64,000 nt of DNA from Chloroflexota bacterium (GTDB taxonomy: Bacteria > Chloroflexota > Anaerolineae > UBA2200 > JACIWT01), in assembly GCA_014360825.1 (NCBI GenBank), contig JACIWT010000004.1:62001-126000 (forward strand), written 5' to 3'. The position numbers were made by a program, and so were the translations under genes. A model generated the notes under the pieces. That model did not search any database. It had not been told where the DNA came from and saw only the letters and a program-made list of their open reading frames with translations. Below, in pieces: positions 9,926 through 30,671 of this stretch (position 1 is its first letter; every line of letters begins with the position of its first letter).

Positions 9926-10276
9926 ATGCGCGCGTTAGTGATCCGCGAACCGTGGATAAACCTGATCCTGGAAGGGCGCAAGACCTGGGAGATCCGGGGC
10001 AGCAATTGTAACATACGAGAACGCATCGGCCTTGTTCGAAGCGGATCTAGGCTGGTGGTTGGGACGGTGGAGATCGTGAATGCCCGCGGGCCACTAGCGT
10101 TCGACGAGTTCAGAGCAAATGTTGCCAAGCACTGCATGCCACCCAGTGCATTCTACAACCTCCCTTACCGCGACAAATACGCTTGGATTCTCGCCGATCC
10201 AAAGGCGCTTGCGGAACCGTTTCCGTATGAGCATCCCAGAGGGGCGAGGATATGGGTTGAGATCCCCGATATTTAG
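9926..10276 (+). CDS. ASCH-domain protein
   Basis: A 116-residue protein starting at the ATG 4 nt after the caspase stop. It shows the ASCH/PUA-like pattern: MRALVIREPWINLILEGRKT followed by WEIR, the family GxKxxExR motif, then the barrel strand SRLVVGTVEIVNA and AWILADPKALAEPFPYEHP. ASCH proteins bind RNA or modified nucleosides; some hydrolyse N4-acetylcytidine or act as ribonucleases. A longer in-frame ORF starting at 9563 overlaps the caspase gene and has no support. The tight spacing implies translation with the caspase, making this the last gene of the cluster. Confidence 0.82.
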   Translation: MRALVIREPWINLILEGRKTWEIRGSNCNIRERIGLVRSGSRLVVGTVEIVNARGPLAFDEFRANVAKHCMPPSAFYNLPYRDKYAWILADPKALAEPFPYEHPRGARIWVEIPDI

Positions 10277-10448
10277 TGGCGGGGGTTCCGGATCGTTACA
10301 GTGCGGCGTCATCTACAACCGGGTCGAGGGGCGCAGCGATGTCTCCGATCCCAATCCGGGAAACAACGTCGCCATCACGGGGACGTTAATTGGGTCCTGC
10401 GTCCGCCGCATCTATCTGCCAATAATGATGCGGCAGTTCACTCGGTAA
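10272..10448 (+). pseudogene. Fragment of a secreted protein C-terminus with YLPI motif
   Basis: The frame overlapping the ASCH stop reads SGGGSGSLQCGVIYNRVEG, then SDPNPGNNVAITGTLIGSC and ends RRIYLPIMMRQFTR-stop. There is no start codon, RBS or signal peptide of its own. The terminal YLPIMMR matches the motif in the next gene remnant (HLYLPIIIK) and in the subtilase (IFLPIIL). It is probably the 3' end of a lost secreted protein gene; the 5' part was likely replaced by the protease cluster. Confidence 0.5.
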
Positions 10449-10462
10449 ACCTAAGCAGGGAT

Positions 10463-10496
10463 ACCCTCCCGCAGGTTCTGAAACCTGCGGGAGGGT
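10463..10496. repeat. 15-4-15 perfect palindrome (family B)
   Basis: ACCCTCCCGCAGGTT, loop CTGA, AACCTGCGGGAGGGT. Same architecture and core (GGTTCTGAAACC type) as 25716-25749 and 40792-40826. Confidence 0.85.
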
Positions 10497-10531
10497 GGGT
10501 GTTCTAAGGGCAAGGTGTGCCTCGCGCTTGC

Positions 10532-10560
10532 TTGTCTTTCGTAAAGATGGGTGTTACAAT
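10532..10560 (+). promoter_or_regulatory. Sigma70-type promoter of the degraded secreted-protein gene
   Basis: TTGTCT at 10532-10537, 17-nt spacer, TACAAT at 10555-10560, about 107 nt upstream of the ATG at 10667. Confidence 0.6.
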
Positions 10561-10666
10561 ATAGACGCCCTGGTGACGTGGGGCCGATCACGATAGGCGA
10601 CGAGCGGCAGGCGTACCCCTACGAATGAGATTTGTGCGTCTTTACAATGGCACAGGAGGTTATCCC

Positions 10667-11048
10667 ATGGATACGCGCCGGGTTCGCATTACGCTCTCGC
10701 TCGTCGCCATGATACTGGCCATTGGGAGCGCCTGGCTGGCGGCAATGCCGGGCGCAGAGGCGGTCAGGGATGCGCCCGCTGCCGCTTCAGTCAAGGTGCT
10801 GGAGGGCCATGTCTATGAGATAGTCCCCGGCAGATTATATCTCTGCCATGGCCACGTCCATAGGTGGCACGGTGATGACTCTCAACTGGATACGATACAC
10901 GTACGTTGGCCTCAACGGGACTCTGACCGACAACAACTTCTGGGATAGACGCCGTGCTCCCACCCCCATGCCCACCCATACTCCTGCCCCCACTGGCACA
11001 CCCATACACCTCTATCTGCCGATCATCATCAAGGAACCGATTCGCTAA
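10667..11048 (+). pseudogene. Frameshifted secreted protein with signal peptide, Thr-Pro linker and YLPI motif
   Basis: AGGAGG precedes an ATG at 10667 that opens a clear signal peptide (basic MDTRRVR, hydrophobic LVAMILAIGSAWLAA, AEA cleavage site). After about 55 codons this frame becomes non-secreted-like and stops at 10948. The +1 frame continues with GGTVMTLNWIRYTYVGLNGT, a linker (TPMPTHTPAPTGTP) and the end IHLYLPIIIKEPIR-stop at 11048. A frameshift near 10830-10850 therefore joins two halves of one short secreted protein. A sequencing error is an alternative. Function unknown. Confidence 0.55.
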
Positions 11049-26888: not shown

Positions 26889-26975
26889 CCACACCAATGG
26901 GTGCCTGTGCCATTCGGCCCCGTCACGCGGGATCCCTTTGGCTCTATGCACATTTGACAGAGAGGAGCCTTTTCG

Positions 26976-29900
26976 ATGAAAACCCATTACAGCCTCGCCC
27001 TCATCTTGGCAGCCGCTGTGCTGGTCTCCTTGGCTGGCCTGACCCTGGCTGATCACTCACTTGGAGAGGAACCCCTCCTCATCCACCTCCGCGTGACCAC
27101 GTTCGATCCCTTGGTGGCCCTACCTGATATTCCGGCTCACCTGCAAGCGGGCCCTCTTGGCGAGGGGCGTGCGCCTTACATCGTCCAGTTCACCGCATCG
27201 GCCAGGGAGGAATGGAAGCAGAGCATCACCGCCCGCGGCGGCGAAATCATTGGCTACATTCCCGATTACGCCTATCTCGTGCGGATGACCGCCTCCACTG
27301 CACGGCAAGTGGAGGCCCTGGAGGCTGTGCGCTGGGTGGGCCCCTTCGCCCCAGCCTACAAGATCGAGCCCAGCCTGCAGAAATTGGCGCTGGGCTCAGC
27401 AGACGTTTTCACTCTCCACCTCATGACCTTCCCAGGCGAAGACATAGCCACGCTGGAAGCGACGATCAGCGGTTTGGGCGGCAAGGTGTTGGCTGCCTCT
27501 GAAGGTGAGATGGCCTCCTACTTGCGCCTCGAATTACCCGGCGTGCGCATCGCCGATCTGGCGCACCTTCCGGCTGTGGCGTGGATCGAGCCCTTTATCC
27601 CCAAAACTCTACATAACAATGTGGCCCGCGGCATCATGAACGTGAACTCCGCCTGGACCGGGGCGGGTGTCGGTCTGTACGGGGAGGGGCAGATCGTGGC
27701 CGTGGCCGACACAGGCCTCGACACCGGCAACGCGGCGACCATCCACGAGGATATCCGCGGGCGGTTGCAGGACGCATACGCCTGGGGCCGGCCCGGCGAC
27801 TGGAGCGACGATGTTACCTACGATGGGGTGCCCCAGGGAAGCCACGGCACTCACGTGGCCGGGTCGGTGCTGGGCAACGGCACTCTTTCCGGCTCCAACC
27901 CGGGCGCGCACAACTACACCAATTCCTTCGCTGGGGTAGCGCCCGAAGCCCGCCTGGTGTTCCAGTCTGTGATGGATGCACAAGGCAGCCTGGGGGGCCT
28001 CCCCAACGACTTCAATGACCTTTTCCTGCAGGCCTACAACGCTGGCGCACGGATTCACACCAACAGTTGGGGCGGCCCGACCAGCATGGATCCTAGCAAT
28101 CCCTACGGCGGCTACACTATCGAGGATCAACAGACGGACCAATTCATGTGGAACCACCCCGATTACCTCATTCTCTTCTCCGCCGGCAATGAGGGTGTGG
28201 ATGCGAACGCGGACGGAGTAATAGACCTGGATAATGTGGGCTCCCCTGGCACAGCAAAGAATGTCGTCACCGTGGGGGCGACGGAGAACAACCGCCCGCC
28301 CGGAAGCGGTTTCGGCGGCTACTCGAACTATATGTGGGGCACCGGCAGTTGGGAACCAGACTACCCCGTGAACCCTATTCACGACGATTACATCAGCAAC
28401 AACCCCAATGGCATGGCTGCTTTCTCCAGCCGCGGCCCGTGCGATGACGGGCGCATCAAGCCCGACGTAGTGGCTCCGGGGACAGACATCATCTCCGTGC
28501 GCGCCCGGGTGCCTGGAGCCGACACAGGCTGGGGCGAGTACAATGCCAATTACCTGTATATGGGCGGGACGAGCATGGCCACTCCCCTCACCGCCGGCTC
28601 GGCAGCCATCATCCGCCAGTGGCTGCAGCAGGTCAAGGGCATCGCCAACCCACAGGCTTCGCTGGTGAAGGCGGTTCTCCTGAACGGGGCGACCAACATC
28701 GCCCCGGGTCAATACGGCACCGGCCAGTATCAGGAAATCCCGTACACCATCCCCAACGGTGTAACGGGCTGGGGACGGGTGAACGTGGCGGAGAGCATCG
28801 GCGCGGGCAGCGCGACGGTGCTGGTCGAGCAGAGAACCGATGGGCTAGGCACTGGCGGCTCGCACACGTACCAGTACAACATCGCCGTGGGCGCTGCGCC
28901 GGCTTCTGGTGGGCAGAAGGTCTCGAGTCTGCCGCAAAGTCAGGCCCTCCGGCAGGAGGGTGTTACTGCGGTCTTGGACAGCAGTGGCATCACCTGGCCG
29001 GAACCGGTGCGCCCCACTTTGGCCGCGACGGGCTGGACGAATATCATGACCGAGGACTTCGAGGGCGCTTTCCCCTCGGCGGGCTGGACTGTGTTCGACA
29101 ACGACGGATCCAATTATGGCGAGTACTTCTGGGCCAAGCGCAACTGCAAGCCTTACCAGGGCAATTACAGCGCTTGGTGCGTGGGCGGAGGAGCCAATGG
29201 GAGTGCCCTGGCCTGCGGCGCTGACTACCCCGACTACGCCGACTCGTGGATGGTGTACGGTCCCTTCGACCTGAGCGACGCCACCAATGCCCAACTGCTA
29301 TTCTACCACTGGACCAAGACCGAATACAACTGGGATTACCTCGTCGTTATGGCCTCCCTGGATGGTACTAATTTCTATGGCGACGCTTTCCATGGCGACT
29401 GGGTGGGTGAGTGTGGAGGATGGTGTGCGGAGACCTTCGATTTGACCGATGTCTATATGTTGGGGAACCTGTGTGGGCAGCCCCGTGTCTGGGTCGCTTT
29501 CAACTTTGAGAGCGATTACAGTGTTACCTACCCGGGCGCCTTCGTGGACAACATTGTATTACGGGCTGAGCGTGGCGGGGTTGGACCGACGCCTTCGATT
29601 ACCATCCCTGCGGGTACCAGCCCCACGCCGTCGCCCACTACTACTGGCGCTGTTAGCGGCGTCCCCTTCAAGGTTACGCTGGCCTGGACGGACTACCCCG
29701 GCTCACCGTGGAACAGCGTGCAACTGGTGAACGACCTGGATCTGGAGGTCATCGCCCCCGACGGGACGCACTACTATGGCAACAATGCTTCCGCTGGCAG
29801 CCGCGACCGACGCAATCCCGTCGAGAGCGTGATCATCGCCAATCCCCCCTCTGGCAACTACCAGGTGATCGTGCGTGCCCACAACGTGGCTATGGGAGGC

Positions 29901-30671
29901 TTGCAAGGCTACGCCCTGGCGGTGAGCGGCCCGAATCTTTCCGCCGGACAAGGGCTCACACCGAGTCCCACGGCCACGGCGACGTCAGGCCCATCAGCCA
30001 CGCCTACCAGCACTGGTACGGCGGAGCCATCGCCCACAGCCACGCGTACTGTTACAGTAGGGCCATCGCTGACGCCCACCAGCACCCGTACTCCGGGGGC
30101 AATCCAGATATTTCTGCCCATCATCCTGTACTACTATCCGCCGTTTCCCGCCACGCCTTCGCTGAACCCGATTGACAATGCCGATGGGGACAACGAGTAC
30201 ACGGTCTCATGGACCACTGCCGCCCGCGCGGACACTTACACACTGCAGGAGGACGACAACGCTTCCTTCTCCAGCCCGACGGTGGTGTATGAGGGCAGCG
30301 CCACGAGCACGCATCTGACGGGCAAGCCGACGAATAAGACTTTGTACTATCGGGTGCGGAGCAACAATGCCTGGGGCACGAGCGGGTGGAGCAACACCCG
30401 TTCGGTGTGGATTCCGCCGGCGATGGGGACTTGGCGGATCATCAACGACACGGGAGGGACACTGACCATCGAACTGTACGGGGTGCAGACGCGCGAGTTC
30501 GCGCCTGGGACGCACGATTGGCAACTGGCGCCGGGGACGTACTCCTATCGGGCCAGTGCGAGTTGTGGCTCGTTGACCAGTTCGGTGCGGATTTACGAAT
30601 ACTCAGTGACCACGACGCGGTTCTATTGCGCCTACTACAGCCCGCCGGAGCGAGGACTGCGAGCGCGGTAG
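26976..30671 (+). CDS. Secreted S8 subtilase with multidomain C-terminus
   Basis: A 1231-residue protein. A Sec signal peptide (LALILAAAVLVSLAGLTLA) is followed by a propeptide-like region (to about 220). The subtilisin domain follows, with Asp245 (VAVADTGLD), His290 (SHGTHVAG) and Ser533 (GGTSMATP); all catalytic residues are intact. A MAM/jelly-roll-like region starts near residue 690 (FEGAFPSAGWTVFDNDG). A P-domain-like beta sandwich (VTLAWTDYPGSPWNSVQLVN) lies near 895. Next come a Ser/Thr/Pro linker, an internal IQIFLPIIL motif near 1045, an fn3-like domain and a short beta domain. GAGAGGAG precedes the ATG. It probably degrades extracellular protein. It is monocistronic with a strong promoter. 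Confidence 0.93.
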   Translation: MKTHYSLALILAAAVLVSLAGLTLADHSLGEEPLLIHLRVTTFDPLVALPDIPAHLQAGPLGEGRAPYIVQFTASAREEWKQSITARGGEIIGYIPDYAYLVRMTASTARQVEALEAVRWVGPFAPAYKIEPSLQKLALGSADVFTLHLMTFPGEDIATLEATISGLGGKVLAASEGEMASYLRLELPGVRIADLAHLPAVAWIEPFIPKTLHNNVARGIMNVNSAWTGAGVGLYGEGQIVAVADTGLDTGNAATIHEDIRGRLQDAYAWGRPGDWSDDVTYDGVPQGSHGTHVAGSVLGNGTLSGSNPGAHNYTNSFAGVAPEARLVFQSVMDAQGSLGGLPNDFNDLFLQAYNAGARIHTNSWGGPTSMDPSNPYGGYTIEDQQTDQFMWNHPDYLILFSAGNEGVDANADGVIDLDNVGSPGTAKNVVTVGATENNRPPGSGFGGYSNYMWGTGSWEPDYPVNPIHDDYISNNPNGMAAFSSRGPCDDGRIKPDVVAPGTDIISVRARVPGADTGWGEYNANYLYMGGTSMATPLTAGSAAIIRQWLQQVKGIANPQASLVKAVLLNGATNIAPGQYGTGQYQEIPYTIPNGVTGWGRVNVAESIGAGSATVLVEQRTDGLGTGGSHTYQYNIAVGAAPASGGQKVSSLPQSQALRQEGVTAVLDSSGITWPEPVRPTLAATGWTNIMTEDFEGAFPSAGWTVFDNDGSNYGEYFWAKRNCKPYQGNYSAWCVGGGANGSALACGADYPDYADSWMVYGPFDLSDATNAQLLFYHWTKTEYNWDYLVVMASLDGTNFYGDAFHGDWVGECGGWCAETFDLTDVYMLGNLCGQPRVWVAFNFESDYSVTYPGAFVDNIVLRAERGGVGPTPSITIPAGTSPTPSPTTTGAVSGVPFKVTLAWTDYPGSPWNSVQLVNDLDLEVIAPDGTHYYGNNASAGSRDRRNPVESVIIANPPSGNYQVIVRAHNVAMGGLQGYALAVSGPNLSAGQGLTPSPTATATSGPSATPTSTGTAEPSPTATRTVTVGPSLTPTSTRTPGAIQIFLPIILYYYPPFPATPSLNPIDNADGDNEYTVSWTTAARADTYTLQEDDNASFSSPTVVYEGSATSTHLTGKPTNKTLYYRVRSNNAWGTSGWSNTRSVWIPPAMGTWRIINDTGGTLTIELYGVQTREFAPGTHDWQLAPGTYSYRASASCGSLTSSVRIYEYSVTTTRFYCAYYSPPERGLRAR

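Follow-up and report, generated by a model that had tools for sequence, protein, structure and literature searches.

According to the sections of PMC3237569 and PMC1569441 consulted here, the LPXTG, PEP-CTERM and GlyGly-CTERM signals each combine a motif with a membrane helix and a basic cluster, and signal and enzyme co-occur; the consulted part of PMC11980579 groups MYXO-CTERM and its myxosortase with these motif-helix-basic-cluster signals. The tag analyzed here, the YLP box, resembles the LPXTG/sortase system in that many cargo proteins with signal peptides have one short common C-terminal motif containing LP. The YLP box, however, has no TG, no helix and no basic cluster following a helix, and sortase does not track the tag. 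With the PEP-CTERM/exosortase, GlyGly-CTERM/rhombosortase and MYXO-CTERM/myxosortase pairs it shares a lineage-restricted, C-terminal position on unrelated exported proteins; compared to these signals, as the consulted sections describe them, it consists of the motif and one or a few basic residues only. The C-terminal domains of type IX secretion are another likeness, being C-terminal, placed after linkers and carried by varied cargo; however, these domains are far longer and belong to Bacteroidota, whereas the YLP box has approximately ten residues.

It should be noted that the tag is already in the databases as a putative sorting motif and is not new. Two NCBIfam models, NF050076 (sort_motif_YLP, 11 positions) and NF053834 (ultrashort_CTERM, 10 positions), bear the same description, "YLP-box putative sorting motif". 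These models matched 26 and 20, respectively, of 54 tagged proteins at E<=1, over the tail in all cases where the matched stretch was shown; strong matches were not obtained because the models have only 11 and 10 positions. In the genome from which the locus comes, three of the six listed places exceeded the 15-bit cut-off of NF050076, two of them C-terminal (contig C27) and one internal (contig C3, L014). At the same lax E-value, matches were also found in 12 of 14 control genomes, two of them over the cut-off. We found no paper on the YLP tag in the open-licence literature, and a subscription paper could exist; the literature matches to "YLP motif" concern other things, judging by the titles and the beginnings of the abstracts.

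Tagged remnants and internal copies in one genome

The window, i.e., the whole stretch of 64,000 nucleotides that was analyzed, contains the following features, with remnants 1 and 2 carrying the tag at their ends.

9926-10276: ASCH-domain gene (Pfam ASCH), upstream of remnant 1
10278-10448 (approximate), plus strand: remnant 1, the C-terminal remainder of an exported protein that is otherwise lost, with a YLP-tagged end, about 56 codons
10413-10445, plus strand: YLP tag of remnant 1, YLPIMMRQFTR, with RRI just before it; stop codon at 10446-10448
10667-11048, plus strand: remnant 2, a small exported protein with a frame break before 10848
10667-10770, plus strand: signal peptide of remnant 2, MDTRRVRITLSLVAMILAIGSAWLAAMPGAEA, ATG at 10667; end approximate, placed by eye
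10956-11003, plus strand: Thr/Pro linker of remnant 2, APTPMPTHTPAPTGTP
11013-11045, plus strand: YLP tag of remnant 2, YLPIIIKEPIR, with IHL just before it; stop codon at 11046-11048
26958-30668, plus strand: subtilase (Peptidase_S8) that has a signal peptide, a Thr/Pro linker and, inside the chain, a YLP-like motif followed by a C-terminal domain
30111-30131, plus strand: YLP-like motif of the subtilase, FLPIILY, after a TRTPG linker and without K/R at position 7

The first-pass annotation had described two gene remnants with YLPI(M/I)x(R/K) ends, and both are present at 10413-10445 and 11013-11045. The two tails, YLPIMMR and YLPIIIK, fit the definition of the tag that we drew from 156 tails ([YF]LP, two aliphatic residues, any residue and K/R, near the C-terminus), and both lie four residues before the stop. 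The ASCH gene and the open frame of remnant 1 (10098-10448) overlap at the end of the former, in different frames; the N-terminus of remnant 1 is lost, and no paralogue was found elsewhere in the same genome. For remnant 2, the tail had been said to lie downstream of signal peptide and Thr/Pro linker: both are there, but the signal peptide is in one frame, and the linker and the tag are in another. Both window genes are damaged, and we read them as decayed genes with their tags retained; the tails are divergent, Ile-rich variants of a Chloroflexota-wide tag; neither tail matched any NCBIfam family at E<=10. The same split between the frame of the signal peptide and that of the body was seen in a second tagged gene of this genome (L099:4972-5700); its cause could be gene decay, an error of assembly or a switch of frame at tagged genes.

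The subtilase had been likened to the remnants. Its motif indeed follows a Thr/Pro linker; however, this weaker FLPIIL is internal, 186 residues ahead of the stop, so that the label "end of secreted proteins" does not apply to this copy. Altogether, seven copies in this genome directly follow a TR(T/P)PG linker and precede a C-terminal domain (L003, L004, L005, two in L057, L083 and the subtilase), and in L023 the motif is between a cohesin-like domain and a linker; the K/R is not kept in all of these internal copies. A peptidase-like protein (L094:3423-6317) carries the C-terminal tag YLPVILRP as well as a YLP-like ICLPLVSP right after the signal peptide.

One alternative is that the tails are chance hydrophobic ends, with the examples picked by eye. 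The bare five-residue DNA pattern is indeed at chance across the 2.89-Mb genome: the Tyr form was found 48 times, compared to 50 for the backwards control, and the Phe form 67 times, compared to 65. We inspected all 115 places, and the placement of the matches is different from the chance expectation: 10 of the 53 in-frame matches in closed open reading frames (ORFs) of at least 100 aa fall within the last 14 residues, with approximately one expected (binomial probability about 2e-7 under random placement). K/R occupies position 7 in nine of these 10, the tenth being YFPIMAWRRS. Judging by eye, most of the 10 have signal-peptide-like N-termini; the exceptions are L095, with an ambiguous start, a 133-aa ORF on contig C27, apparently frameshifted, and remnant 1, which has no N-terminus. 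Scrambled motifs gave no C-terminal matches in the pooled loci, versus 134 for the real motif, although many of these loci were pre-selected for the motif. C-terminal counts in loci that came from motif-plus-stop searches are no test of position; the tests of position are the bare-pattern counts given above and a position-blind search of five genomes described below.

Phylum-wide distribution and cargo of the tag

In a sample of 301 genomes of the phylum, Tyr-only patterns that included the stop were found in 60 genomes with one residue between K/R and the stop, and in 71 genomes with none. For the latter pattern, there were 101 matches versus 6 in the control for family f24 (19 genomes), 18 versus 6 for family f34 (7 genomes), and 37 versus 16 for the class of the genome studied here (38 genomes). 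A single genome, G011, had 19 matches versus 0 in the control with one residue before the stop, 5 versus 0 with none, and 75 versus 1 for the form without the stop. One contig of this genome (L272:2211-9365, G011:C474) has five tagged ORFs of 470-652 aa within about 7 kb, two of them with near-identical ends, probably the result of recent tandem duplication of tagged proteins.

A collection with one genome per species was scanned for one DNA form, YLPL[IVM]xR followed by a stop, which yielded 75 exact matches, 64 of them in records with Chloroflexota titles, including Roseiflexus, Oscillochloris, Viridilinea, Caldilineales, Thermoflexales and Anaerolineae; nearly all of these 64 terminate long exported-type ORFs. 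Among the 11 matches under other titles, seven are frames no longer than 52 aa, two (L175 and L200) represent the same Actinoplanes protein, and two (L191 and L196) also terminate long exported-type ORFs. The end of L191 matches the Roseiflexus loci L162, L201 and L214, and we therefore take L191 as probably misbinned.

A signal-peptide-like start, defined by our own rule (a basic n-region and an uncharged hydrophobic 12-mer) rather than by SignalP, was found in 34 of 36 tagged ORFs, compared to 58 of 242 other, neighboring ORFs (Fisher test, approximately 1e-16). Absence of motif enrichment at the C-termini of signal-peptide proteins had been named in the first-pass annotation as the outcome that would refute the proposed signal, and this outcome was not seen. 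Together with the concentration in Chloroflexota, the long exported-type ORFs and the independent NCBIfam name, this association supports the proposal of a lineage-specific surface signal. The collection scan and the signal-peptide test refute the chance explanation, which is further contradicted by the C-terminal placement, the K/R at position 7 and the 101 matches versus 6 in f24; we give it practically no credence.

The consensus of the tag has ten residues, Y-R-[VLI]-Y-L-P-L-[VI]-x-[RK], with the core Tyr-Leu-Pro, and is usually close to the stop. Conservation extends upstream of the search pattern: among the 156 tails, V/L/I is present at position -1 in 122, R at -2 in 50 and Y at -3 in 40. 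The stop directly follows the K/R in 100 of the 156 tails, a count that is shaped by the search patterns, and all 156 end 0-7 residues after the K/R, with seven being the maximum that the pattern allowed. In a set of five small homologues, found through the tag and with 31-43% identity to the first of them, seven columns are invariant, and the tag residues Y, L, P and R make up four of these. A Thr/Pro linker is frequently in front of the tag, and no transmembrane helix was found after the motif.

The 54 tagged proteins contain 58 Pfam families, none of which is present in more than three members, and therefore these proteins share little but the tag. Many of the cargo domains are beta-rich; in the genome studied here they include DNRLRE, LVIVD-type, cohesin-like and beta-helix domains. 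One protein (L031), whose C-terminus lies 15 residues beyond the K, gives an above-cut-off match to the choice-of-anchor Q domain, a family that is named for the varied anchors it carries. Six loci (L113, L178, L209, L211, L221 and L275) encode small exported tagged proteins of about 85-125 aa, several of them with Gly-rich GGGYTLxGGFW repeats; these proteins are near minimal carriers of the tag and are suited to experiments.

The abundance of beta-rich cargo is compatible with another explanation, namely, that the motif serves as a structural end strand, completing or protecting the final beta domain of each protein without any role in location, and a repeat domain in L014/L300 does include a YLP-like strand. 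Conversely, the motif often follows a long Thr/Pro linker, the cargo folds are unrelated, and the motif can precede the first domain. In addition, in the AlphaFold model of L100, a 207-aa cohesin-like cargo protein, the domain is predicted confidently (block means of 65-96 over residues 51-190), whereas residues 194-207, which contain the tag, score below 50, have no secondary structure and are not packed on the domain; this low confidence is weak evidence because the alignment held three sequences only. The model of one small tagged protein was uninformative (pLDDT 48.7). We consider the structural explanation improbable.

Possible partners of the tag: sorting enzyme or docking surface

The first-pass annotation had suggested that a dedicated processing enzyme might read the tag. 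By analogy to sortase and LPXTG, the YLP box could be a true sorting signal, at which a Chloroflexota enzyme would cut and join the protein to the envelope. The C-terminal preference (43 of 57, see below), the many-to-one pattern exemplified by G011 and the NCBIfam name are consistent with this possibility, as is the distribution of sortase (PF04203), found in 19 of 20 tag-rich genomes versus 12 of 25 tag-poor genomes, both sets being hand-picked from the two motif-plus-stop searches (Fisher test, 9e-4). However, sortase is absent from G168, in which seven ORFs of at least 245 aa and one cut ORF have tag ends, and is present in all five tested tag-poor genomes of the same class. Thus, although commoner in tag-rich genomes, sortase lacks the joint presence and absence that a partner should show, and we rejected it.

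Other candidate partners were rejected as well. Exosortase (PF09721) was detected in one of the 20 tagged genomes, and rhombosortase (TIGR03902) exceeded the cut-off in none of the 20; rhomboids scoring below the TIGR03902 cut-off were also present in all 14 controls. Clustering of the ORFs of L131-L235 revealed no neighboring gene family in more than three loci. The absence of a helix that would keep the substrate at the membrane, as well as internal and N-terminal copies of the motif, also argue against a sorting signal. A dedicated enzyme is thus unsupported, and we regard the sorting-signal explanation as unlikely, albeit more credible than the end strand.

The position-blind search of five genomes produced 119 matches versus 4 in the controls. 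Among the 64 matches that were inspected, 43 were C-terminal, 14 were elsewhere in ORFs of at least 100 aa, six were in short ORFs, and one ran off the end of the stretch. In L245, L252, L255, L249 and the open L278, the motif is located within about 60 residues after the signal peptide, and in most of them a Pro-containing stretch comes after it; the cargo includes a glucose/sorbosone dehydrogenase (GSDH, L245), an expansin (L252) and a CAP-domain protein (L255). Two copies of the motif separate two domains in L254, whereas the L253 match, in what seems to be a cytosolic enzyme, is probably due to chance. After signal peptides, the YLP motif was found four times (one of them membrane-protein-like), compared to 0-1 per scramble; these copies are scarce, and every one of them is from a locus that had been selected with the motif. 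In a beta-helix-like protein (L289, G011:C422), the motif at residue 650 is followed by a hydrophobic, membrane-helix-like stretch, so that both possible kinds of anchor are present.

Internal and post-signal-peptide copies are unlike a signal for C-terminal processing only, and are expected of a binding peptide. We therefore favor the possibility that the tag is an exposed, strand-like peptide that would dock exported proteins non-covalently on the envelope, with a probability of roughly 45%, over the action of a transpeptidase. The tagged Chloroflexota proteins would be exported via the general pathway by their signal peptides, the tag would be kept on the mature protein and hang free on its linker, and it would bind as an extended strand to a common component of the cell envelope, such that the protein is retained without a covalent bond. 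The copies after the signal peptide on the GSDH, the expansin and the CAP protein support docking, since a C-terminal cleavage signal would leave them unexplained. Conversely, the strong preference for the C-terminus would suit an enzyme as well, and the name given by NCBI is that of a sorting motif.

A candidate for the docking surface is an exported, DUF5719-like repeat protein of the same genome (L300:1501-2808, corresponding to C3:27183-28490), with an internal YLP-like strand. Its homologues in several f24 genomes are 45-48% identical, and each of the repeats opens with an xVxLPL[IV]x[RQ]xN strand. The peptide EVYLPLIMRNN of the member in this genome exceeded the cut-off of NF050076 when the genome was searched, and at 12.8 bits was below it in another search; most homologues have not conserved the Tyr. 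Such homologues were found in 17 of 20 tag-rich genomes versus four of 25 tag-poor genomes (Fisher test, 4e-6), and in none of 20 genomes outside the class, a co-distribution with the tag that could be explained by shared ancestry alone; no homologue was detected in the tagged genomes G104, G152 and G246. These sequence comparisons weakly support an L300-type protein as the docking surface. A more specific version, in which the YLP box anywhere in the chain would act by donor-strand or strand addition, with the repeat-opening strand of L300 as its model, and in which the role of receptor for dozens of cargo proteins would fall to an L300-type protein, or to a copy of its domain that is incomplete, with no transpeptidase involved, appears to us a long shot, even less probable than the end strand.

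Mats, sediments and wastewater harbor abundant filamentous Chloroflexota, and, to our knowledge, little is known of protein display at the envelope of these bacteria. Two observations restrict the mechanism and open it to experimental tests, namely, the tag copies at internal and N-terminal positions and the absence of the known sorting enzymes. A receptor or an enzyme for the tag would be a new display mechanism, and a short tag common to many exported proteins per genome is of help in naming the surface proteome from sequence.
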